A stretch of DNA of 64,000 nucleotides from Fibrobacter sp. (GTDB lineage: Bacteria; Fibrobacterota; Fibrobacteria; Fibrobacterales; Fibrobacteraceae), in the NCBI GenBank assembly GCA_024398965.1, contig JAKSIF010000004.1, positions 124,001 through 188,000 of the forward strand, read 5' to 3'. The notes below the pieces were generated by a model. It had not been told where the DNA came from. It ran no database searches and saw only the letters and a program-made list of their open reading frames with translations. Positions 10,991-24,637 of the stretch are shown piece after piece (positions within the stretch are counted from its first letter, which is position 1; each line of letters begins with the position of its first letter). The position numbers were made by a program, and so were the translations under genes.

Positions 10991-13174
10991 ATGAAAATGA
11001 AAAAATTACTCCCCTGCCTAATGGCACTCGCAGCCATTCCGGCATTCGCTGACGCCACGACCGCTGTCGCTAAGAAAGTCGGCCCTGTCAGCCACTACGG
11101 TACTCTCGGTTCTGCCAATGGCAAGGTCATTGGCACCAAGACCAACCAGCCCGCAATCCTCCGCGGTATGAGCTGGTTCTGGTCCGATGCAACGGGCCTG
11201 CCCTACTATTCCAAGACCGTTCTTGACTGGGCAACCGACAACCTCAAGATCGACGTCATTCGTTTCGCCATGGGTATCAACTACTATGGTACCGATACCA
11301 AGAACAAGCTCTCCGACGGTTACTCCTACATGAGCGCACCGGATAGCTACAAGGTTATCGTCGACAAGATGATCGAAGCCGCTATCGAAAATGACATCTA
11401 TATCATTCTCGACTGGCACAGCCATCAGGCCAACTCTGAAACTGCTGCAGCAAAGGCCTTCTTCTCTGAAATGGCTCAAAAGTACGGCAAGATTCCTAAC
11501 GTCATCTTCGAAATCTTTAACGAACCCACCGGCAGCTGGGGCGAAGTCGCCAACTACGCAAACCAGGTCATTCCCGGCATCCGCGCCGCTTCCGAAAACC
11601 TGATCATCGTGGGTAACCCCGGTTGGTCCTCCCAGCCTAACGCTGCAAGCGGCTTGACTCAAACCAACCTGGCCTACTCCCTGCACTTCTACGCCGCATC
11701 CCACCCGGTTAGCGGTTATGGTTCCAACGCCACCCAGGCAATGAACTCCGGCAAGGCCGTGTTCGCCACCGAATACGGTACCGTGAACTACGACGGTGCA
11801 GGTACTCCTAACGCATCTGCAACCCAGTCCTGGTTCGACTTCATGGACCAGAACATGATCAGTAGCTGTAACTGGAGCCTCCGCCAGGTGCAGACCACCG
11901 AAAATGGTAACGTCAAGAACGAAACCTCCGCATTCTTCGATGGCAGCACCGAACTTACTTCCAAGGCACTTCTCGATGCAGCAAAGACCAGTACTTCCGG
12001 TGCAATCGTCAAGCAGTATCTGGTTGGCAAGGGCCGTACCTGGGCAGACTCCCTGGTCAAGGGCAAGAACACTGGCGCATGCGCCTTCAAGTCCTTCTCT
12101 GCAGGCGAACTGGATGGCACCGTGGCAAGCAAGCTTGCCGGCGGATGTACCTACACCTCCAGCAACGAAAACGTTGTCAGCAACTCTGGTGAAATCAAGG
12201 GTGCAGGCTTTGCAATCATGACCGGCAACGACGGTTCTCAGTCCGTCATCACCATCAAGGGCATCCCTGCTCAGACCGTTCCTAACTTCCAGGACCTTAC
12301 CTGTAACTTCGGCGGCACCTGCAGCACCAACAGAACTCTGAGCTACTCCGGTGGTCCCAACAAGGAATGGATCGTTACTATCGATCCTACCACCCTCGAA
12401 GGATCCAAGTTCACCTTGACTTCTCTTGATCCTAGCATCGTTACCGTAAAGACTGCAACCTGCTCTAACACTTCCTGCTCCAACGCTCAGAAGGGCAAGC
12501 AGGTTCTGATGTACGAATTCAAGAGCTTCGGTTCCGCAAAGATTGTTGCTACCGCAGCAGCAACCCCCGGTTACAAGGCAGTTCAGGACACCATCACCGT
12601 GACCTACGAAAAGGGTTCCAACAAGATGACCAACAACTTCAAGAACACCACCCTCGCTCTCGGCGGTGTTGCAGAAAAGTTGGTTCCTGATACCACCATG
12701 TACCACACTCCGGTAACCTACACCTTTAACGGCGAACCCACCTCCAAGTACGTTACCAAGAACGGCAACGCTCTCCAGGCCGGCACCGAAAACGCTGTAG
12801 TCAAGATTACCGCAAACGCTCCTGAAACCGAAACCTACAAGGAATTCCACATGACCATTACCGTGGTCGTGGGCGACAGCACTCAGGCCGTGAACAAGAG
12901 CGAAGTTGAAGCAGCAAGCATCGTCAAGACTAACCCGAAGCTCCCGCTCAGCGCAATCGTAGCTGGCAATCAGCTTCATGTCAACAGCAACGAAGCTGGC
13001 GACATCAACGTTGAAGTCTTCTCCATCACTGGTCAGAGCATCATGAGCAAGACCTTGACCTCCAATGGTACTGCATCCATGTCTCTTGCAAGCATTCCTA
13101 ACGGCTCCTACCTGGTTGTCATCAGCCAGGGCGTCCGTCAGCTGAATGTCAAGTGGAACAAGATCTCTAAGTAA
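10991..13174 (+). CDS. GH5 endoglucanase, multidomain, secreted
   Basis: 727 residues. Signal peptide 1-21 (IPAFA). The GH5 domain spans about 30-330: RGMSWFW, DWHSH, acid/base Glu178 in EIFNEP and nucleophile Glu261 in FATEYG. These are the two retaining-mechanism glutamates of GH5 cellulases. Residues about 340-650 are beta-rich, possibly Ig-like or binding modules with paired cysteines. The final 75 residues (LHVNSNEAG, VEVFSITGQS, IPNGSYLVVIS) form a sorting-type tail like that of type IX secretion clients, so surface attachment or release is expected. The start ATG is preceded by AAGGGA at 7 nt. It is monocistronic, with terminator at 13199-13230. Confidence 0.92.
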   Translation: MKMKKLLPCLMALAAIPAFADATTAVAKKVGPVSHYGTLGSANGKVIGTKTNQPAILRGMSWFWSDATGLPYYSKTVLDWATDNLKIDVIRFAMGINYYGTDTKNKLSDGYSYMSAPDSYKVIVDKMIEAAIENDIYIILDWHSHQANSETAAAKAFFSEMAQKYGKIPNVIFEIFNEPTGSWGEVANYANQVIPGIRAASENLIIVGNPGWSSQPNAASGLTQTNLAYSLHFYAASHPVSGYGSNATQAMNSGKAVFATEYGTVNYDGAGTPNASATQSWFDFMDQNMISSCNWSLRQVQTTENGNVKNETSAFFDGSTELTSKALLDAAKTSTSGAIVKQYLVGKGRTWADSLVKGKNTGACAFKSFSAGELDGTVASKLAGGCTYTSSNENVVSNSGEIKGAGFAIMTGNDGSQSVITIKGIPAQTVPNFQDLTCNFGGTCSTNRTLSYSGGPNKEWIVTIDPTTLEGSKFTLTSLDPSIVTVKTATCSNTSCSNAQKGKQVLMYEFKSFGSAKIVATAAATPGYKAVQDTITVTYEKGSNKMTNNFKNTTLALGGVAEKLVPDTTMYHTPVTYTFNGEPTSKYVTKNGNALQAGTENAVVKITANAPETETYKEFHMTITVVVGDSTQAVNKSEVEAASIVKTNPKLPLSAIVAGNQLHVNSNEAGDINVEVFSITGQSIMSKTLTSNGTASMSLASIPNGSYLVVISQGVRQLNVKWNKISK

Positions 13175-13491: not shown

Positions 13492-13530
13492 AAAAAAAGA
13501 AGGCCCGTGGTTCTACCACGGGTCTTCTTT
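13492..13530 (-). terminator. Intrinsic terminator ending the six-gene surface operon
   Basis: A 13-bp stem, essentially AAGACCCGTGG with CCACGGGCCTT plus flanking pairs, then T7 on the minus strand. It is the only terminator found for the genes from 23243 down to 13547. Confidence 0.88.
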
Positions 13531-13546: not shown

Positions 13547-14602
13547 TTACTTCTTCTTGGGCTTATAGCTGATTTCCGGACGGAGTTCGAGACCGATGGT
13601 CACCAGGAGGCTGACGATCGGTTCGTGATGGTCCTGAGAAAGATCATAAACGGCAACACCGGCCATACCGTCGTTCTTGACCTGCTGGGCAACAGCCTTG
13701 ACAGAGGGAATACCCATGAAGACGATGGTTTCGGAAGAGCTCACAGCCACTTCGGACTGGGAGGCTTCATCGAAGGTAACCTTGTAATCCGGAGTGTCGA
13801 ACTTGCCCATCAGTTCGGCATAGGTCACGTAACCTTCGTTACCGCTACCCACACCCTGGTGAGAAGAACCGAGACCGCTTGCGCCGCTCCAGGTCTTGCC
13901 ATAGAGGAAGATGATAGGAACCAGCAAGTCAGTGTTAACGCCTGCGCCGGAAACCTTTTCCAAGGATTCCTTCACGTAGGAGGCACTCTGGTTGGGAACA
14001 ACTTCGGAACTTTCTTCAGTCATCTGGTCGGACATGAACACGTCCACGTAAGCGAGGCGGTTCAGAGCGTCGGCCTTATAGGCATCCATACCGGCAGAAG
14101 GATAAACCACTGCGGTAACAGTCTGGCCGGAAAGACCATCCACAAGGGCGTTCACCATCTTGGCGTAGTCTTCTGCGTCATCTGCAGTCAGGTTCTGCCA
14201 GTCCAGTTCCACACCGTCGCCGCCGTTATCAGAAAGCCAGCTGCTGATGTTGGAGACGAAGCTGGAAAGAGCGTCGTCGGAACCGGCGATAGCCTTGAGA
14301 GCACCTTCGGTTTCCATGCCACCAACGGAAACGATAAGCTTCACGTTGTTTTCCTTGGACATCTGAACCAAGGTCTTGAAGTTTTCTGCGTCGTTTTCAT
14401 CAGCAAAGGCGAGAGAGCCGTCTTCGCTGGGAGCCAAACCAACGTAATGAATGTCAGTCACGGTGTTATAGCGGATATCCTTCGGATAGAACTGGGAGTA
14501 CTGACTCCAGTAAGGATAGAAACCAACAACCTTGTCCGCAGCGGCGTTTGCCATTGCGAATGCTCCAAGAGCAAGAGTCAAAGCAATTGTTTTAATATTC
14601 AT
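13547..14602 (-). CDS. GH18 chitinase-like protein with missing catalytic Glu
   Basis: 351 residues with signal peptide 1-21. The fold markers of GH18 are present: VVGFYPYW at the N-terminus, LIVSVGG around residue 100, and the catalytic strand DGVELDWQ at 129-136. In active GH18 enzymes this strand is DGxDxDxE; here the acid Glu is Gln136 (codon CAG, read directly) and the middle Asp is Glu132. Without the acid/base the protein should not hydrolyse chitin and is more likely a lectin-like or scaffold subunit, as known for other inactive GH18 members. It is the last gene of the operon, 14 bp after the lipoprotein gene. Confidence 0.8.
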   Translation of the reverse strand: MNIKTIALTLALGAFAMANAAADKVVGFYPYWSQYSQFYPKDIRYNTVTDIHYVGLAPSEDGSLAFADENDAENFKTLVQMSKENNVKLIVSVGGMETEGALKAIAGSDDALSSFVSNISSWLSDNGGDGVELDWQNLTADDAEDYAKMVNALVDGLSGQTVTAVVYPSAGMDAYKADALNRLAYVDVFMSDQMTEESSEVVPNQSASYVKESLEKVSGAGVNTDLLVPIIFLYGKTWSGASGLGSSHQGVGSGNEGYVTYAELMGKFDTPDYKVTFDEASQSEVAVSSSETIVFMGIPSVKAVAQQVKNDGMAGVAVYDLSQDHHEPIVSLLVTIGLELRPEISYKPKKK

Positions 14603-14616
14603 GATTTTACCTCGCC

Positions 14617-15534
14617 CTACTTCTTAATTTCTCGAGCAGTGCCATTATCGTCGCAATACACCTTCTTAGTCGGGTATTCTTCGGTAATGATCGGATTTGC
14701 CTTTTCTGCTTCGGTGCAACGGCGGTAGCCCCAGCCATGGAGACGGCCGAACACAACGTACTGGTTGATGATAGCAGAAGTATCGATAGGCATCTTCTTA
14801 AGAGCACCGAGGTCATCGGTGGTTTCATAGAAGTTGAATGCGCGGAGCTGCTTCATCTTGTCGGCAGGAACACCGCCTTCCGTAGCAACCTTGATGGTGT
14901 CCATGGAAAGAGTGTCAAGACGGGTCTTAACATCCTTCTGGCTTACGGTCACGGTTTCACCGATAGTGAAGTCGGCAACTTCTTCAGCCTTGTTGAGGCC
15001 TACAACCTTAACAATAGCTCCAGCGGAATCCAAGGTCACTTCGCAAGTTTCGCAAGCCTTGACATACTTATGTTCCTTGGTATCCCAGGTACCGATGACC
15101 AGGATGCTCGGGGTTTCACCATCAACCACAGTCACATTAAGATAATGCTTCACGGTTTCAGGAACCAGGGAGTCACGGGTACCGGCAGAGTTGTCGGTTT
15201 CCCATTCGGTAGCATAGCCGAGAACGCCACCAACGAAGGGATCCTTGTAAAGGGCTTCGAGGGTAACTACGTCGGCATCGAATGCTGCAGAGTCGGCAGA
15301 CTTGAGTTCAGCAAATGCTTCGCCAGAGGCATCCTTGAAAGAGTCATTAACGTAGGTCACGTAATCCTTATACTGCAAGTAGAGCAGCTGCGGATGGATC
15401 TCCATGTATTCGGACTTGCTGAAGTCAGCCGGGAAGTTTTCGGACAGAGCCTCTTCTTCTTCCACATCCATGGAAGAGCAGCCGAACATGGCGGAGGCTA
15501 CTGCAACAGAGAGTAAGAATTTAAAGTTTTTCAT
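14617..15534 (-). CDS. Hypothetical lipoprotein of the surface operon
   Basis: 305 residues with lipobox (MFGC, Cys19) followed by an acidic stretch (MDVEEEEAL). The rest is mixed alpha/beta with one Cys pair (CETCEV) near the middle and a C-terminal Cys-containing basic end. I recognise no family. It lies 11 bp after a beta-barrel gene and 14 bp before the GH18-like gene, so it is a fixed part of the operon; an outer-membrane accessory lipoprotein for the barrels is the simplest inference. Confidence 0.75.
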   Translation of the reverse strand: MKNFKFLLSVAVASAMFGCSSMDVEEEEALSENFPADFSKSEYMEIHPQLLYLQYKDYVTYVNDSFKDASGEAFAELKSADSAAFDADVVTLEALYKDPFVGGVLGYATEWETDNSAGTRDSLVPETVKHYLNVTVVDGETPSILVIGTWDTKEHKYVKACETCEVTLDSAGAIVKVVGLNKAEEVADFTIGETVTVSQKDVKTRLDTLSMDTIKVATEGGVPADKMKQLRAFNFYETTDDLGALKKMPIDTSAIINQYVVFGRLHGWGYRRCTEAEKANPIITEEYPTKKVYCDDNGTAREIKK

Positions 15535-15545
15535 TGCACAACCTC

Positions 15546-17663
15546 TTAGAAGTTAACCGTAACGTCAGCAACGATTACGTTCTTGTCAATGGAAAGTTCA
15601 TCCGGGGCTCCGGTCATGAGGTTGGTGAAGGACACCTTGTCGCTCAACATACCGTACTGAACGGAGAGGTAGGAGTTGGAAGCAATCTTCACACGAGGAC
15701 CAGCCAGAATCAAGGATTCTTCAGCCTTGTTGACGGCAGCCATGCCAACCGGGAGACCGATACCGAACTCTCTGTTAGAAGACTGGTAACCAGCCAGGAG
15801 AGCCACAGGACCGTATACATCGATAGATGCACCAGCCATCAGGCGGTCGTTCTTACGCTGCAAGAAGGCATCTTCTTCGGTGTGGTCGAAGGAGCCCTGG
15901 ATCTTGATCTTGCGACCGAGAGCCGGGACAAAGCGACCCACATCAAGGGCGAGGCCCACTGCGTAACGGGTAAAGTTGTTTTCAACCAGGGCGCCAGTGG
16001 TAAAGTCCACAGCGGCACCTTCATTCATCATGGAGAACAAGGCGTTAACTTCAACAGCGTCGTTCCAGCTCAGGTTCAAGCTAGCCTGGATACCCTTGCG
16101 GTCCGGAGTAGCAACGCCGTACGGAAGTTCCATGCTGGTGGACGGATCCAAGCTGAACAGAGCCTGACCAATCTCAAGACGCTTCAGCACGTCGGCATTG
16201 TAACCGTTGCGGTAGAAGTGAGCGTTCTTGTAGTTGTTGTACAGACGAGCGTACATGTAACGACCATCTTCGTTCTGGCTAGACAAAGCGTTGTTGCTAG
16301 TCTCAGAAGTCATGAGGTTAGTTGCATTCAGCGGGTTGGAGTTGTAAACATGGAAGTAGATGTTTTCGAGACTTGCCATGCCGAAGCCGTTAACCAGGCC
16401 ATTGTAAGGTTCGTCGAACATTGCGTTAGCGTTCAACACAACCTTGCCGCCACGGTATGCCGGAGTGGAAGCCATTTCAGACCAGAAGTCTTCATCGTTC
16501 TGGAGGTACATGACCTTCAAGTCACCCTTGATGCCTGCGAGATCCAGGTTCACATAGGGTTCTACGTAGAAGGCGGTACCGTCGACATCTTCGATGGTTT
16601 CGTTTTCCAGGTGCTTGTCATCGACGTAAGCAATCTTGATGTAAGCGGTGGGTTCACCGTTCACCTTGATTTCGGTCAGGTTGTACTGGATCTTCTGTTC
16701 GTGAACGAAGTAGTCCATATCGTCATTCCAGTTGGACATGGCGAATTCACCATTAAGACCGAAGCCAAAGGCAGACTTGCCCAGAAGCTTTTCGGAGTCG
16801 AAGCCAAGTTCCACAGAGAGAATGGAGTTGTCTTCGTAAATCACGGTGTCGCGGTCCTGGATACGAGAGCGAGTGCTCCACTGACGGTCAAACACGTCGG
16901 TATAGTTCACACCGAGATGTGCGCCGAAGGCTTCAGCACCGAGACGCAGACCGTAGAAGTAGCGGTCGGCATAGTCGAAGTCGAAGAACACCTGGTCGTA
17001 CTTCTTGGCGGTGTTACGCATACGGGCGCCAGTGATCTGAGCGTTCACGTCGCTAACAACACCCAGGTTGCCACTATGGTATTCAGCGTTAACACCCTGC
17101 ATCAAGCGGTTGCTTGTAGTGTCGAGGTTGCGCTGTGCCATGGATTCTACACGAGCCTGAGCAAAGATCTCGGGTTCCTGCAGCATAATCTGCTGCGGGG
17201 TGTAGAGGGTATACGGAGTATAACCGACGCGCATGTAACCCAAGTTGAAGTCGACATGCTTGTTCAGGATAGTACCATCGTAGGAGAACCAGTGACCGAT
17301 AACCGGGTTGTTGTTCTCGTCGAAAGCACTCTGCCAATCCTTATGGAGACGCAATTCCAAGTGGATCTGAGTCTCGGAACTCGGGCGGGCAGTGAACACC
17401 AGGTTTGCATCAGAGTATGCCTGGTTTTCCTGAGTCGGAGAAAGTTCGCTGTACTGATCAGAACTGGACATGGAAGCAAGAGCACCAGCCTTGACGGTAC
17501 CGTTGATACGAAGTCCCAGAACTGCAGCGTTCAAGGAGTCAAGCTTCTGAAGCAGAGAAGACTGCTGGGAAGCAACGTCCTGTTCCTGAGCAAAAGCAGA
17601 TGCAGCGGAGAACAGAACTGCGGAAGCGAGACCGAAAGTAGAAAGATTCTTATTGTTCATCAT
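15546..17663 (-). CDS. Outer-membrane beta-barrel protein (705 aa), operon gene 4
   Basis: Signal peptide to about residue 25 (SAASAFA), then a short coiled region (SSLLQKLDSLNAAVLG) and about 650 residues of alternating polar/hydrophobic strands rich in Tyr, Asn and Gly. The last strand ends VIVADVTVNF; a terminal Phe is the classical outer-membrane barrel signature recognised by the Bam machinery. It resembles the other two barrels of the operon in layout. No named porin family is assigned. A long open frame on the opposite strand is a shadow caused by codon bias. Confidence 0.75.
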   Translation of the reverse strand: MMNNKNLSTFGLASAVLFSAASAFAQEQDVASQQSSLLQKLDSLNAAVLGLRINGTVKAGALASMSSSDQYSELSPTQENQAYSDANLVFTARPSSETQIHLELRLHKDWQSAFDENNNPVIGHWFSYDGTILNKHVDFNLGYMRVGYTPYTLYTPQQIMLQEPEIFAQARVESMAQRNLDTTSNRLMQGVNAEYHSGNLGVVSDVNAQITGARMRNTAKKYDQVFFDFDYADRYFYGLRLGAEAFGAHLGVNYTDVFDRQWSTRSRIQDRDTVIYEDNSILSVELGFDSEKLLGKSAFGFGLNGEFAMSNWNDDMDYFVHEQKIQYNLTEIKVNGEPTAYIKIAYVDDKHLENETIEDVDGTAFYVEPYVNLDLAGIKGDLKVMYLQNDEDFWSEMASTPAYRGGKVVLNANAMFDEPYNGLVNGFGMASLENIYFHVYNSNPLNATNLMTSETSNNALSSQNEDGRYMYARLYNNYKNAHFYRNGYNADVLKRLEIGQALFSLDPSTSMELPYGVATPDRKGIQASLNLSWNDAVEVNALFSMMNEGAAVDFTTGALVENNFTRYAVGLALDVGRFVPALGRKIKIQGSFDHTEEDAFLQRKNDRLMAGASIDVYGPVALLAGYQSSNREFGIGLPVGMAAVNKAEESLILAGPRVKIASNSYLSVQYGMLSDKVSFTNLMTGAPDELSIDKNVIVADVTVNF

Positions 17664-17678
17664 TTTCGCGCCCTCCCA

Positions 17679-19910
17679 TTAAAATTCCACGTTAAGGGAA
17701 GCTTCGAGGATCATGCGAGAGAACTCACTCTTGTAAGTACCGCTCTGATCCTTGGTAACATCGTAGTAGTTCGGCAGGTTGATAGCACCTTCAGCAGAAC
17801 CAGCTGCAACAAGTGCTCCTGTGTTGTATTCATTTTCAACAGTCATCATGCCGAAGTTAACTGCCAACCAAGCGGTCTTTGCAATGTTGTAGTCGAAACC
17901 GACCATCCACTGCATCTGAGTACCGGACATCAGCGGAGCGAGGACGCCTTCAAAGCCCAACTGCTTCTGCTGATCGTCATTGAATTCGGTAGAGATCATC
18001 TGGAAGCCAGCGTTGAAGCCTACACGAGGCAGGAACTGAACATAGAGGCCAGCATTGATGAAGTCGGAGGAAAGCTCGGACTTGAGGTCAAATGCGCCAG
18101 CGGCAGTCCAGTTGTCTGTTTCCAAGGTACGTTCGGAATGCTTATAAGAACCGGAGATTTCCAGCGGCTTGCTGAAACCGAGGAGCTTGAATACGTCAAC
18201 CTTGGCGCCACCACCGAATTCCATGAAGGTTGCAGCCTTGTAGCTGAAGCCCGGAGCGAATTCAACCGGAGAAACCTGCTGGAAGATGCTGAACAAGCCC
18301 TGGACTTCGGCAGCTTCGCCGATGTTTGCGATCAGGTTGGCACGACCACCGAGACGGTTGGAAGTGGCAAGACCGTTGGGCAGTGCAAGCTGCAGAGCCG
18401 GATCAGCCAGAGTCTGGAGGAGAGCCAGCTGATTGCGGGTGTAAACGTTAGCACCCCAGGAATTCTTGTTATAAGGAGCCCAAGTGTAGCTTTCGATCTG
18501 AGCATCGTTGAATGCGTCGTCGTTGGTACCGGTCGGCTTAGCGTTCAGGTACGGGGTCGGGGCAAACTTCGGTGCAAAGTTGTAGAGAGCGTCGAAGGAA
18601 GAGTAGAGTGCGGAGTTGACACCGTACTTAACAGTGCTACCGTCAAGGTCGGAGTTCTGGATGCGCTGGGCAAAGAACTTCGGAGACTGAGCCATGTTGT
18701 TGTACCAGTTGCTGTCGTTGTAGACACCGTCCAAGACCATCTTTACGCTGAATGCGTCAGTCTTGTAACCGGCGTTAGCATTGAGCAAGAGGCCCACACC
18801 ATCCAAGGTTTCCTTGTTGTAGAAGTCGATTTCAAAGCTGGATTCACCAGATTCTTCATCAACAACTTCCTTGTAACCGCCGACGGTGTAAACATCGTCG
18901 CTGGAGAGTGCGAATTCTGCGGTGGCATTCAAGATCAGGCTGTTGCTGCCAGCTATGCCGGCAATGTCAGCACCAACGCGACCACTCATGACCAAGGTCT
19001 TCTGGGGATTTTCGTCCAGAGGATTGATGGCCTGGAGTTCGTAGGGGTTGGCATACTTGCTGTACTTACGACGCCAAGTGTAGGAATAGGTGTCCTCGTT
19101 ATCGAAGATGTACATGGGAGTTGCACCGATGTAGATGTTCTGATTGAACGGGAACCATTCGAAGTTACCGGCAGCGAGCCACTTGTCCATGTTGGCAGCC
19201 TGGCTTGCACCGAAGATGGTGTCGTTAGGAATGATGTTACCTTCAGCACCGACGAAGTCCAGGACTACGTTGCGGTTGATACGGGCAAACATACCTTCGG
19301 CGCGGATTTCACCGAGAGCGCCGCCGAGGTTGTGGCGGAACTGGACGTTTGCACCCTGGAGGTTACGCTGGTTGCCTTCGAGCAGCTGCTGCTTTTCAGC
19401 CATGTGGCGCTTACGTTCGAAGATCTGGGCTTCGTACATGATTTCCACATCCGGGTTGAAAAGGGTCAGAGGAGAGTACTGCTGACGGAAGCTACCCAAA
19501 ACCCAGTAGAAGGAATTGCCGATGTTGCCTTCGACGTTGATCCAAGGAACGGAAACGGTCTTAGCGGCAGAGGCGAAGTATTCCTGCATACCGGCACCCA
19601 GGCGAAGCATTGCATTAGCGCGAACATTTTCGTAGGGGCGGAAGCCAAAGTTAAGATCGGCGTATACAAACTCGTCCTTTTCGACGGTCTGCATCTTGTT
19701 TACGCCAGTAGGGTCGTTATCAGTGTCAAAGCTGGAGGACTGGGCTACAGCACGAATGCTACCTGTAACTTCCAGGCCACGCTTTGCGTTGATGGAATCA
19801 ACCTTGCTTTCAATCAAATCCTGATTATCTGCAACGGAAGCGGCGGAGGCAGCTGCGGTTGCAACGAGGAGAGTGGCGAAAGTCTTTTTCATATTCATAG
19901 TCTTTTTCAT
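17679..19910 (-). CDS. Outer-membrane beta-barrel protein (about 743 aa), operon gene 3
   Basis: Several in-frame starts are possible. ATG 19908-19910 lies 7-8 nt after GGGGGTG and is preferred over GTG 19919. The signal peptide is followed by a short helix (DLIESKVDSINAKRG), as in the neighbouring 705-aa barrel, then repeated amphipathic strands (VYADLNFGFRPYENVRANA and similar). The C-terminus is RMILEASLNVEF, with the terminal Phe expected of outer-membrane barrels. It sits 15 bp before the next barrel gene. Substrate unknown; the operon context suggests glycan binding or uptake at the surface. Confidence 0.75.
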   Translation of the reverse strand: MKKTMNMKKTFATLLVATAAASAASVADNQDLIESKVDSINAKRGLEVTGSIRAVAQSSSFDTDNDPTGVNKMQTVEKDEFVYADLNFGFRPYENVRANAMLRLGAGMQEYFASAAKTVSVPWINVEGNIGNSFYWVLGSFRQQYSPLTLFNPDVEIMYEAQIFERKRHMAEKQQLLEGNQRNLQGANVQFRHNLGGALGEIRAEGMFARINRNVVLDFVGAEGNIIPNDTIFGASQAANMDKWLAAGNFEWFPFNQNIYIGATPMYIFDNEDTYSYTWRRKYSKYANPYELQAINPLDENPQKTLVMSGRVGADIAGIAGSNSLILNATAEFALSSDDVYTVGGYKEVVDEESGESSFEIDFYNKETLDGVGLLLNANAGYKTDAFSVKMVLDGVYNDSNWYNNMAQSPKFFAQRIQNSDLDGSTVKYGVNSALYSSFDALYNFAPKFAPTPYLNAKPTGTNDDAFNDAQIESYTWAPYNKNSWGANVYTRNQLALLQTLADPALQLALPNGLATSNRLGGRANLIANIGEAAEVQGLFSIFQQVSPVEFAPGFSYKAATFMEFGGGAKVDVFKLLGFSKPLEISGSYKHSERTLETDNWTAAGAFDLKSELSSDFINAGLYVQFLPRVGFNAGFQMISTEFNDDQQKQLGFEGVLAPLMSGTQMQWMVGFDYNIAKTAWLAVNFGMMTVENEYNTGALVAAGSAEGAINLPNYYDVTKDQSGTYKSEFSRMILEASLNVEF

Positions 19911-19925
19911 TTTCAGCACCCCCTA

Positions 19926-22484
19926 TTAGAACCAAGCCTTAACTTCGGCGGAAATGTAGTGAGAATGCCAATCATTCACAGAAACAAGTTCGTCGGAATG
20001 AGTCATGAACTTGTAGCGGGCATGCAGGCCTACGCGATCAGAGAAGTCCCAGTCGAAACCGACACCCAGTGCAGTTTCCATGTAGTTGATCGGAGCCTTC
20101 TTGTAGTAGTACTGACCGTACTGACCCACATAGGCGTACTGCTTCGGGTCCTTACCGATGTTCGGGGTAATGAGACCGGCGACGTAAGCCTTTTCAGAGC
20201 GGAAGGTTTCGAGACCCAGGATACCGACCATGTGGAAGGTGGGGGTCACAGCAACAGAGGGTTCGAACTGACCGAAGAAGCTCCACATGAGCATGTCGCT
20301 CTGAGATTCGCTGAAGGCGATCGGAGCGAAGGAAGTGGAGATGCCGGAAATAGAAGCGTAACCAGTCATCATGATAGTGCGGTCGGTATTGAACCAGCCA
20401 CCGATATCATAACCACCCATGAAGGAGAAGTAGGAAGACCACTTGGTGTGCTGGGGAACTTCTTCGTTGAGAATCTGTTCAGCGTTGTCGTAGGCAACGA
20501 AGGATTCCCACAGTTCCCAGGTACCACCGTAGAGACCACCCTGCTGGCGATACTGCTTGATGCCCTTTTCGGTACCGATGGTGGTACCTACACGGGCAAC
20601 GTAACCAGCGCCATCACCGTTACCGGAGTCAGCGATGAAGAGCGGCTTATGCTTGGTCCAGGAGTTGGAGCTTTCCCACATGTTACGGCCGTTCAAGCGG
20701 TAGTTGAACATGATCACGTCCTGACCATCTTCGATCTGACGGTGCTGACCGTACTGAACATCGAAGTAACCGCGGTTGAAGGTAGGTTCAACCTTCAGGT
20801 TGATACCAGCCATATTTGGGGTGTAACGCATGGAACCGCCGTTCAGGTAGGCTTCATCCTTACGCCAGCTGGTAAGACGAGAGGGGTTGCTCAAAGAATA
20901 GGGAGAGTAGAATTCCTTAGGCAGGAAGATTGCTTCGGCAGTGATGGGCCAGCCTTCGAGATGCTTGCTCTGAGCCTTCACATAGACACCGACCTGCGGG
21001 GTATTCATTGCAGTTTCGTAGGCGTCAGCCAGGTAACCGGTAGAAGGATTCAGTTCGTTGTAGTCTGCAGCGTCTGCAGTCTGATAGAACTTGACGGAGT
21101 CAGTCATGCTGACAGCCACATCAGCCATCAAGTAGAGCTTCGGGGTAATGTTGCCCTTGATGTCGATAGAGGCCACATGAGTGTTGAGGATGGTCGGACC
21201 CACGTCGGAGTACTTGATCCACTGGTTACGGAATTCGTCTTCGTAAACAATGCCTTCGTCGAACATGACACCGATGTAGTTGACACCGAGAGTCAGGTTG
21301 TCGGCGATCTTTTCCTTGGCGATACGGCCGTGGTAGATGGAACCACGCATATCGTAGCCACCGGACATTTCAAGTTCACCAGGCTGGCCACCGAACATGC
21401 GGAGACCGTCACGGGTACCGACGTCAGCATCCATAGGCTGGGAGACGAGGAACTGAGCCTTCAAGTTGAAGGGCAGCTGGTAGGCATTGGCAAAGACGCC
21501 ACCGAAGGAGCGGTTGGTCCAGAATGCACGGCCACCTTCCTTAACGGGCTTAAAGACCTTTTCCTTATAGTAGGTACTTACAGTCTTTTCGTCTTCGAAG
21601 AGTTCGTACTGCCAAGCGAAACGAGGATTGGTTTCACGTTCCCACATGGTAAGGGGAGAGGAGTTTGCCCAAATCACGCCGCCTGCGGTAACGTAGGCAC
21701 CGAACACACCGGCACGGATATCCACACCGAAGTTCATTTCTTCGTTAACGGTGGTGGAGTAGAAGTCGGTGGAGTGGTCGAACAGGACTCGCTCGTCGTG
21801 AGTGGGAACGTCCGTCGGCTTATGGCCCAGGTAGTTGCTGTACAAACCGGTCAGATCGAACGGCATGGACAGGTTGGTCCACAAGGTCATGTAGGAGTTG
21901 GGCATAGCCACGATGTTCATGTTAAGAACTGCATCCACCGGAGTACGGGCGATGTCGTTGCGGACCCACGGGCTACGTTCGGAGTAGTGGAAGTTCTTAA
22001 GACGGAAGGCCATGTAACCGGAAACTGCCAGGGGAAGGTCGTCCTTACCCATGAGAGTAGATTCCATGTTTTCGGTGAGACCGTCGATGTTTTCTTCCAC
22101 AGCGGCAATCTGAGCATCCGGAGCCATGGTAGCGGGAGCGGCAACCACAGGTGCAGGTCCTGCCACGGGAGCGGTGCTGGTCATGTCCTTCTTGGGTGCT
22201 TCAGCTACCGGTGCCGGTTCGGCAGCGGGTTCTTCGGCGGCAGCTTCCTGTACAGGTTCTTCGGAGGAAGATTCATAGCTGCTGGAGTAATCGCTGGCGT
22301 CAGAATAGGAGGACTCCTCGGCTGCAGGTTCGGCTGCAGATTCTTCTGCGGGGGAATCGTAGCTTTCAGAGGCGCTGGTTTCTTCTACAGCGGATTCTTC
22401 GGAAGAATCACTGTAATAATCGTCCTGAGCGAACAGGAGCGAAGAGCAAAGCAGTGTCGTTGCTAGTGTAGTTAATTTACGCAT
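19926..22484 (-). CDS. Outer-membrane beta-barrel protein with acidic Ser/Ala/Glu-rich N-terminus (852 aa)
   Basis: Signal peptide 1-19 (LLFAQ), then about 100 residues dominated by Ser, Glu, Ala and Pro (repeats of EESAAEPAAEE type), then a barrel-like domain rich in aromatic residues. It ends SHYISAEVKAWF with terminal Phe. The low-complexity part is likely a flexible extension in the periplasm or outside the cell. It is the second gene of the operon, 15 bp after the carbohydrate-binding-like gene. The family is not recognised beyond a Fibrobacter-type large outer-membrane protein. Confidence 0.75.
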   Translation of the reverse strand: MRKLTTLATTLLCSSLLFAQDDYYSDSSEESAVEETSASESYDSPAEESAAEPAAEESSYSDASDYSSSYESSSEEPVQEAAAEEPAAEPAPVAEAPKKDMTSTAPVAGPAPVVAAPATMAPDAQIAAVEENIDGLTENMESTLMGKDDLPLAVSGYMAFRLKNFHYSERSPWVRNDIARTPVDAVLNMNIVAMPNSYMTLWTNLSMPFDLTGLYSNYLGHKPTDVPTHDERVLFDHSTDFYSTTVNEEMNFGVDIRAGVFGAYVTAGGVIWANSSPLTMWERETNPRFAWQYELFEDEKTVSTYYKEKVFKPVKEGGRAFWTNRSFGGVFANAYQLPFNLKAQFLVSQPMDADVGTRDGLRMFGGQPGELEMSGGYDMRGSIYHGRIAKEKIADNLTLGVNYIGVMFDEGIVYEDEFRNQWIKYSDVGPTILNTHVASIDIKGNITPKLYLMADVAVSMTDSVKFYQTADAADYNELNPSTGYLADAYETAMNTPQVGVYVKAQSKHLEGWPITAEAIFLPKEFYSPYSLSNPSRLTSWRKDEAYLNGGSMRYTPNMAGINLKVEPTFNRGYFDVQYGQHRQIEDGQDVIMFNYRLNGRNMWESSNSWTKHKPLFIADSGNGDGAGYVARVGTTIGTEKGIKQYRQQGGLYGGTWELWESFVAYDNAEQILNEEVPQHTKWSSYFSFMGGYDIGGWFNTDRTIMMTGYASISGISTSFAPIAFSESQSDMLMWSFFGQFEPSVAVTPTFHMVGILGLETFRSEKAYVAGLITPNIGKDPKQYAYVGQYGQYYYKKAPINYMETALGVGFDWDFSDRVGLHARYKFMTHSDELVSVNDWHSHYISAEVKAWF

Positions 22485-22499
22485 AAAATCCTATTCCTC

Positions 22500-23243
22500 T
22501 TAAATCTCGTTGCGGAACGGGTAGTTGGCCGGACCTTCGTAAGCCTTGCCATGTTTCTTAATGACAATATCGTCAATCCAAACCTTGAAGGATTCGTTTT
22601 CATCCTTACGGACTTCAAGACGGAAACCCTTGAAGTTGGACCAGCTGAAGGGCAGCATCACTTCGCGGGTGTTCTTGGCATCCCAGTACACACCGGTACG
22701 GCCGAAGAGCTTCAGAGGAATGCTGAAGTGAGTCCATTCGGAAGTAATTTCGCCAAGGCTCTTGGAGCGGAGCTTAACCTGCATGGATTCACCACCGGTC
22801 TTCACACCGTCATCCACCAGCACGAACAGGGCGTTTTCACCACCCTGGGCACCCTTGATCCAGAATTCCAGGACGCCTTCTTCATAGTAGGGTTCCAGGT
22901 CGACGGAACCGGCAATACAAATAGCCACACCGGAGTAGTCGCTGGCAATAAGTTCGATTTCCATGGAAAGAGCGCCTTCCATAGCGAACTTATCGGTGAG
23001 GAACGGTTCCGGGTTTTCACGAGGATACTGGTAGGTATAGCCACCGCCACGTGGAATAGCTTCACGCATAACCACGGACACGACGTCCTTATCCGGGCGG
23101 AAGGGCTTAGCCTGCTTAGTAACAAAACGGGACTGGTCACGGTCGCGATAATCGCTAAACCCATAGCCAGCAAAGGAGAAAGATGCCATTAGGAGTACGC
23201 CAAGGGCGCACAACCAGCTTGCTTTATGCGGATTTGCTTTCAT
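22500..23243 (-). CDS. Secreted carbohydrate-binding-like protein, first gene of the surface operon
   Basis: 247 residues. The start ATG 23241-23243 gives a normal signal peptide (LLMASFSFAG); an upstream in-frame extension to 23378 has no such signal and is discounted. The mature part has the galactose-binding/CBM11-like pattern: GALSMEIELIASDYSG, a central YYEEGVLEFWIKG strand, and a C-terminal FKGFRLEVRKDEN plus VWIDDIVI. This resembles CBM11 or CIA30-type jelly rolls that bind glucans. TATATT at 23277-23282 is a possible -10. Being first in the operon with three barrels suggests a glycan-recognition function for the complex. Confidence 0.7.
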   Translation of the reverse strand: MKANPHKASWLCALGVLLMASFSFAGYGFSDYRDRDQSRFVTKQAKPFRPDKDVVSVVMREAIPRGGGYTYQYPRENPEPFLTDKFAMEGALSMEIELIASDYSGVAICIAGSVDLEPYYEEGVLEFWIKGAQGGENALFVLVDDGVKTGGESMQVKLRSKSLGEITSEWTHFSIPLKLFGRTGVYWDAKNTREVMLPFSWSNFKGFRLEVRKDENESFKVWIDDIVIKKHGKAYEGPANYPFRNEI

Positions 23244-23482: not shown

Positions 23483-24637
23483 ATGAAGAAAATTGCCCCT
23501 CTAGCGATGGCATTTGGCATGGCAGCCCTTTGTTTTACGGCTTGCTCCAGTGACGGCGGCGGACATGCAGCAGCTCCTAACTCCAGCGCCTCCGCTGAAG
23601 GAACACAGGTTGTTCCTGTCGACTATTCCAAGGGCCGCGCAATGAATGCTCGTTTGGGCAGGGGCATTAACCTGGGCAACTCCTGGGACTCCCAAGGCAG
23701 CAACCTTGACTGCAGCTGGAGAAACTGCATCGAGGATACCGATTTCGCAAAGATAAAGGCTACCGGCTTCAACTCCGTCCGACTTCCTGTCCGTTGGCAG
23801 TTTGATTCCGACTACGGCACCCATACCGTCAACCAGGAACGTCTCGCAGGCGTCAAGGAAGACATCCAGCTGGCTCTGGACCAGGGCCTAGCCGTTATCG
23901 TTAACTTCCACCACTACAAGGAACTGAACGATCTCTGCAGCGACTGGGCAGCCAATCCTGCCGCCTTTGAAGAGGAAAAGCAGCACTTCCTGGCCCTCTG
24001 GGACCAGGTTTCCAAGGAAATGAACGTGTTCCCCGACGACATGGTGGTTTTGGAAATCATCAACGAACCAGGCTGTAAGTTCCCCGAAGTCATTGACGCC
24101 CTGGAAATGGACGCCTACAAGATTATTCGAGCAAACGCTCCGGGCAAGACCATTATGTTCGAAGCCGACCAGGCTGCAAAATTTGCCCAGCTTCCCATGC
24201 TCCACCTGCCCCCCGACGGCAACATCATCTATTCCGGCCACTACTACGAACCTTACCAGTACAGCCACCAGGGTCACAGCTATGCATGCAAGGGCGACGA
24301 TGCCTACGCAATGACCGCAATGGCCGACCTGAGAAGCTACGTGTCCCTGGCCCAGAAGCTCTATCCCGACATTAACGGCGGCCACGTTCCTATGAACATG
24401 GGCGAATTCGGCATCTCCGGCGGTGGCGATTTCGCCAACACCAGTTCCTGCGGAGCCGACGGCAAGCTCCCCTCCGCCAAGATGAAGGCTCAGTGGGCCA
24501 AGAAAGCTGCTGAAGCTGCGGAAGCCTTCGACATCTCCTGGCACTACTGGGGATTCACGAACGTGGGTGGTTTCGAAGCCTACGACCGCCAGAATGACAC
24601 CTGGTACGAAGGCTTCCCGGCCGCATTCGGATTCTAG
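23483..24637 (+). CDS. GH5 cellulase lipoprotein
   Basis: About 384 residues from ATG 23483, preceded by TTGAGG; upstream in-frame codons lack a signal. Lipobox FTAC, then a short Gly/Ser linker. The GH5 domain starts RGINLGNSWDS, with HH in VNFHHY, acid/base Glu195 in EIINEP, and nucleophile Glu308 in MGEFG. These fit the GH5 endoglucanase group whose N-terminus reads RGINLGN. The gene is single, transcribed divergently from the surface operon, and ends at a strong terminator. A lipid-anchored cellulase suits cell-bound cellulose degradation. Confidence 0.92.
   Translation: MKKIAPLAMAFGMAALCFTACSSDGGGHAAAPNSSASAEGTQVVPVDYSKGRAMNARLGRGINLGNSWDSQGSNLDCSWRNCIEDTDFAKIKATGFNSVRLPVRWQFDSDYGTHTVNQERLAGVKEDIQLALDQGLAVIVNFHHYKELNDLCSDWAANPAAFEEEKQHFLALWDQVSKEMNVFPDDMVVLEIINEPGCKFPEVIDALEMDAYKIIRANAPGKTIMFEADQAAKFAQLPMLHLPPDGNIIYSGHYYEPYQYSHQGHSYACKGDDAYAMTAMADLRSYVSLAQKLYPDINGGHVPMNMGEFGISGGGDFANTSSCGADGKLPSAKMKAQWAKKAAEAAEAFDISWHYWGFTNVGGFEAYDRQNDTWYEGFPAAFGF

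Follow-up and report, generated by a model that had tools for sequence, protein, structure and literature searches.

The window, by which we mean the whole 64,000-nucleotide stretch of DNA analysed, belongs to a Fibrobacter genome of 3.59 Mb and carries on its minus strand, from 23243 down to 13547, six co-directional open reading frames. The first (22500..23243, with its ATG at 23243) encodes a secreted CBM30 protein of 247 aa and is followed by the genes for three large barrels, here termed A (19926..22484; 852 aa), B (17679..19910; 743 aa) and C (15546..17663; 705 aa), a lipoprotein of 305 aa (14617..15534) recognised by its lipobox (...MFGC) and a GH18 pseudo-enzyme of 351 aa (13547..14602). 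When ATG starts are used the intergenic gaps measure 15, 15, 15, 11 and 14 bp, with a Shine-Dalgarno-like sequence in each. An earlier note on this DNA had described a six-gene operon with gaps of 6–15 bp; all six genes and their close spacing were recovered, while the 6 bp value arises from a longer GTG start of gene 3 (barrel B) and the ATG starts narrow the range to 11–15 bp. The single terminator that it had also proposed was located at 13504..13522 on the minus strand, directly 3' of the GH18 stop, as a GC-rich hairpin, CCCGTGGTAGAACCACGGG, followed by a T-rich tail, CCTTCTTTTT, and no terminator was found in the five intergenic gaps.

The operon is placed between cellulase genes, as had been noted; both are GH5 genes on the plus strand. 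The convergent neighbour (10991..13174; Cellulase 3e-50) ends in a type IX-like C-terminal tail that scores just under the cut-off (Por_Secre_tail, 2e-5) and the divergent neighbour lies at 23483..24637 (Cellulase 9e-32). An antisense open reading frame of 2310 aa (15534-22466, plus strand) runs opposite all three barrel genes; its open length in relatives varies from 278 to 2329 aa and it was rejected as a codon-bias artefact.

Pfam matches within the operon were confined to the first and the last gene, both of which had been proposed to encode glycan-recognition folds and do. The CBM30 protein matched its family at 4e-17 (63 bits against a curated cut-off of 27), with 1wmx and 2c24 as the nearest solved chains, and the GH18 protein matched PF00704 at 3e-28 across the whole TIM-barrel domain. 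In the GH18 protein the DxxDxDxE motif reads DGVELDWQ, with Gln in place of the catalytic Glu, which agrees with the inactivity that had been suggested for it. This Glu is gone in all Fibrobacterales copies, mostly replaced by Gln and otherwise by Ile, Val or a broken motif, so that an active chitinase was rejected on the genus-wide absence of the catalytic residue, yet it is intact in class-level relatives (genus g5) whose GH18 genes adjoin the same barrels. The loss is therefore old and the protein has been kept, and retention of a Glu-less GH18 protein appears consistent with a binding role. Both the CBM30 and the GH18 proteins possess signal peptides, and no type IX tail was recognised in either by Pfam search. 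The lipoprotein had no significant Pfam or NCBIfam match and evolves fast; a lipobox-like open reading frame is found between barrel C and GH18 across Fibrobacterales even where the sequence is no longer recognisable.

The three barrels

Barrels A, B and C had no significant match in Pfam or NCBIfam, which places them in no described porin family by sequence. B and C are paralogues, with 24% identity over their whole length (BLASTP, E 4e-27), a kinship by which C was assigned together with its position in the tree. A is related to B and C at the profile level (hhalign probability 96.9%, E 1.8e-10, 615 columns), and the three constitute one family for which there is no Pfam model. All three end in Phe, as had been observed beforehand (A, ...KAWF; B, ...NVEF; C, ...TVNF).

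AlphaFold models were obtained for A and B with 31 and 40 homologues as input, respectively. The A model is a beta-barrel (pLDDT 70) preceded by an acidic, disordered N-terminal segment of 121 residues and then a short helix, while the B model (pLDDT 81, pTM 0.83) contains 22 strands by our own count and also has a short helix before the barrel. The PDB fold matches of both models were outer-membrane barrels with Z scores of 11–15, a level that reflects fold class and shape only and not transport; they included ushers, TonB receptors, the SusC-type barrel of BT1762-1763, OprD, LamB, the chitoporin ChiP and AlgE, and the B model in particular matched OprD, LamB, ChiP, AlgE and usher pores. The plug domain PF07715 was absent from A, B and C at E<=1, and no plug was seen in the A or B models. 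Structure prediction and fold search thus support the outer-membrane assignment given in the earlier note, and A, B and C are predicted to be plug-less, porin-like beta-barrels with a C-terminal Phe. In classic porins the pore is constricted by loop 3. A conserved SPLT segment of B falls between predicted strands 5 and 6 and, judging from the model, may occupy the place of this loop.

Conservation and gene neighbourhoods

Barrel A was found in 145 of 167 Fibrobacterota genomes, covering 31 of 40 genera, and A and B adjoin in constant order throughout the phylum. Of 78 Fibrobacterales loci, each fetched independently and together spanning Fibrobacter of the rumen and the horse through to Candidatus Fibrimonas of the termite gut, 68 kept the order CBM30-A-B-C-(lipoprotein)-GH18, the remaining 10 being short or contig-truncated; this recurrence is far beyond chance and bears out the gene-set conservation on which the earlier interpretation depended. 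One genome bin (G002) held the six-gene operon twice, on separate contigs, which could reflect duplication or a mixed bin. Outside the genus, the presence or absence of CBM30 and barrel B coincided in all 23 genomes compared (15 with both, 8 with neither), and the g3 genomes that lacked CBM30 and B also lacked GH9.

Phylogenetic trees, of which that for A was a quick tree, split the barrel family into two lineages. In lineage I, A and B are followed by a homologue of the CBM30-CBM30-CBM11 protein of the window's genome (38–46% identity, full length in most), a protein named Cel51A here because its size and domain order are those reported in PMC6851124. Lineage II has the order CBM30-A-B-C and is found in Fibrobacterales, a sister family and genus g5. 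Fibrobacter possesses lineage II in its six-gene operon and has the Cel51A-type gene on another contig. In the lineage II loci of g5 (L041, 2578-16102; L042) the A-B-C genes are followed by GH20 and a catalytically intact GH18, and these loci are probably a chitin-utilisation version of the system.

Genes for ABC importers were present in the surrounding stretch of about 20 kb in 22 of 26 lineage I loci (those longer than 12 kb) and in none of 12 control stretches taken from those clades, a small set devoid of importer binding proteins and permeases (Fisher p = 7e-7, a value that overstates independence since the loci share ancestry). The importers belonged to two unrelated types, an Opp-type in several families and a CUT1/Mal-type in g5. 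The closest PDB chains to the importer binding proteins were Thermotoga maritima 2o7i/3i5o (E 4e-67) and, for others, 7c63 (E 1e-101) and CbpB 7x0i (E 2e-87), which are known as binders of cellobiose/cellopentaose, beta-glycosides and cellodextrins. GH1 and GH9 genes flank many of these A-B and importer loci. In Fibrobacter itself importer genes do not adjoin the barrels, and the window's genome carries, on another contig, an Opp-type binding protein of 57% identity whose gene lies some 4 kb away from one for GH9. As importers are not beside its barrels, and as the Fibrobacter-type lineage is accompanied in g5 by chitin enzymes, the substrate in Fibrobacter is proposed by homology.

Among several hundred genomes from other phyla, four contained distant relatives of B, and in three of these A and B are adjacent and in the same order. 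Their neighbours encode CBM11-type or similar glycan-binding-domain proteins together with GH9, GH2 or GH44/39-like proteins, and one genome has an ABC importer sugar-binding protein nearby. At one such locus (L188, 6688-19026) the genes after A and B encode a lipoprotein that binds glycans, the sugar-binding protein of an ABC importer, a BNR/sortilin-like protein (possibly GH74) and GH2, an assortment resembling a hemicellulose utilisation locus.

From gene order and published annotation, the F. succinogenes S85 orthologue of the six-gene operon is apparently Fisuc_1525-1530, in which Fisuc_1525 is a CBM30 protein (FSU_2007), Fisuc_1530 is a GH18 protein (FSU_2012) and the GH5 gene Fisuc_1523 and the GH9 gene Fisuc_1531 lie around them (PMC3079729). 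PMC3079729 and PMC6851124, citing Mitsumori 1996, list FSU_2012 as the cellulose-binding protein CBP1, which proteomics has detected in the outer membrane and the medium (PMC3079729, PMC4668043). The S85 CBM30 orthologue was likewise recovered from the cell envelope and the extracellular medium (PMC4619616, PMC4668043), and from the envelope on every substrate tested (PMC4619616). The CBP1 transcript is high and stable, with Cel51A equally constitutive (PMC6204037), and on cellulose CBP1 falls slightly below its level on glucose (-1.30; PMC6851124); this near-constant expression and the drop on cellulose argue against tight cellulose induction of the operon. Our literature search did not find Fisuc_1526-1529 by name, nor any paper that treats Fisuc_1525-1530 as an operon or system. 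A 2019 proteomics study called the mechanism of cellodextrin transport unknown and proposed a TonB route for which a receptor was not found (PMC6851124). TonB-dependent receptors are very few in the cellulose-degrading genome of the window, with only two plug domains (G000:C1:232859 and G000:C6:69866), both on other contigs.

Candidate function of the operon

The interpretation we lean towards is that the operon encodes an outer-membrane complex for glycan capture and uptake, analogous to SusCD and independent of a TonB plug, in which transport is the deduced part. The CBM30 protein, the pseudo-GH18 CBP1 and the lipoprotein would hold cellulose or beta-glucan chains at or near the cell surface, where neighbouring cellulases (GH5, GH9, Cel51A) would release oligosaccharides; the plug-less barrels A, B and C would be the channels that admit these to the periplasm, from which ABC importers would take them up. 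The gene set, its synteny, the predicted fold class of the barrels, the loss of the GH18 catalytic residue and, in relatives, the link to Cel51A and ABC importer genes are established by the present analysis; we infer a single complex of six proteins, conduction of cellodextrins, surface exposure of the binders and a division of labour among the barrels. Across the phylum, neighbouring genes for ABC cellodextrin-type importers, GH1, GH9 and Cel51A, and likewise the chitin-type GH20/GH18 loci, suggest that capture is coupled to oligosaccharide uptake, and adhesion would then probably make up a part of the function at most.

The earlier note had pictured a surface complex that binds polysaccharide, and the listing of the S85 GH18 orthologue CBP1 as cellulose-binding (PMC3079729, PMC6851124) upholds that part, whereas adhesion alone is probably too narrow a description given the importer and hydrolase neighbourhoods. 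The main alternative, an adhesion platform in which the barrels serve only as outer-membrane anchors that display CBM30 and CBP1 (Cel51A in relatives) with no sugar transport, would account for the recovery of cellulose-binding CBP1 from the outer membrane and medium of S85 (PMC3079729, PMC4668043), for the near universal occurrence of CBM30 beside the barrels and for constitutive expression, which suits an adhesin (PMC6204037). We nevertheless consider it unlikely, if worth serious attention. Three large, pore-like barrels without plugs would be an expensive means of anchoring, fibro-slime proteins are the best known of the other S85 adhesins, and an adhesin with no further role would not be expected to have become linked, repeatedly and independently, to oligosaccharide ABC importers and GH1. 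Uptake is favoured over anchoring because two unrelated importer families are linked to the same barrels.

Alternatively, one or more barrels may secrete or mount the CBM30 protein, the lipoprotein, GH18 or Cel51A in the manner of an usher or a two-partner system. The FimD and PapC usher pores are among the best fold matches (Z 13–15), a fold of 22 to 24 strands also suits ushers, the partner genes always adjoin the barrels, and partner proteins without a type IX tail still reach the medium (PMC4668043). General porins are level with FimD in these scores, however, no usher or POTRA domain was matched in the barrels and the operon has no chaperone gene, so that the likeness to chaperone-ushers may be one of barrel shape only; an export pore would moreover leave the linkage to import genes unaccounted for, and we judge it improbable. 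Still more remote, at a few chances in a hundred at most in our estimation, is a role as the outer-membrane module of a machine for gliding or motor-driven adhesion such as Glt of Myxococcus. The parts list of Glt (GltA, GltB, GltH and the lipoprotein-like GltK) is similar to the three barrels and lipoprotein here, and one Fibrobacteres genome contains relatives of the Agl/Glt core (PMC3169522). At 209–275 aa, however, the outer-membrane proteins of Glt are much smaller, and in that study they were confined to Myxococcales and Bdellovibrionales (PMC3169522), while the neighbours here are sugar-uptake and hydrolase genes and not motor genes; barrel size, the published distribution and the gene neighbourhood led us to set a Glt-like platform aside.

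The proposed capture-and-uptake complex can be compared with known uptake systems. With the SusCD systems and polysaccharide utilisation loci of Bacteroidota it shares an operon of outer-membrane barrels and surface glycan binders beside glycoside hydrolases, here CBM30 and GH18 within the operon and GH5 on both sides; in some relatives the CBM30 partners give weak matches to SGBP_B, a family of surface glycan-binding proteins, and the fold search also returned the SusC barrel of BT1762-1763. It differs from SusCD in having neither plug nor SusD nor detectable sequence kinship, in its two or three homologous barrels per operon, in the use of CBM30/CBM11 proteins or a pseudo-GH18 as binder and in the ABC importers linked to it in relatives. 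SusD/RagB (PF07980) was absent from the window's genome and detected in a Bacteroides control. With neither plug nor SusD, a TonB receptor was rejected, and so was a SusCD system, which the earlier note had also dismissed. With LamB-MalEFGK and ChiP it shares a plug-less pore linked genetically to an oligosaccharide ABC importer and an intracellular glycosidase, and both LamB and ChiP are fold matches of B, but those glycoporins have 16–18 strands against 22 here, and the present system has an obligate A-B pair, dedicated CBM proteins and no sequence similarity that we could find to them. In other Fibrobacterota a homologue of Cel51A (Fisuc_3111 of S85, CBM30-CBM30-CBM11-GH51), the classic cellulose-binding glucanase of Fibrobacter, comes third in the A-B operon; instead of it the Fibrobacter operon has a stand-alone CBM30 protein. 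By the tests run the operon is not a member of SusCD, and it would work like SusCD or a glycoporin-ABC pathway. No described porin family claims the barrels. There is a real chance that the system represents a class of its own. More fully, and more tentatively than the uptake role itself, A-B(-C) with CBM30/CBM11 proteins might constitute a separate class of outer-membrane polysaccharide-uptake system, whose plug-less barrels are homologous and come in pairs and whose origin lies outside SusCD and the known porins. Such a class would serve for cellulose, and probably also for chitin and further glycans, in Fibrobacterota and a few phyla besides.

Fibrobacter is a leading rumen cellulose degrader that has neither a cellulosome nor SusCD. 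Our analysis names specific, conserved and uncharacterised genes as candidates for the passage of cellulose products across its outer membrane and ties two well-known cellulose-binding proteins, CBP1 and Cel51A, to one barrel family. If true, this interpretation would add a family of outer-membrane glycan channels for which there is as yet no Pfam model.
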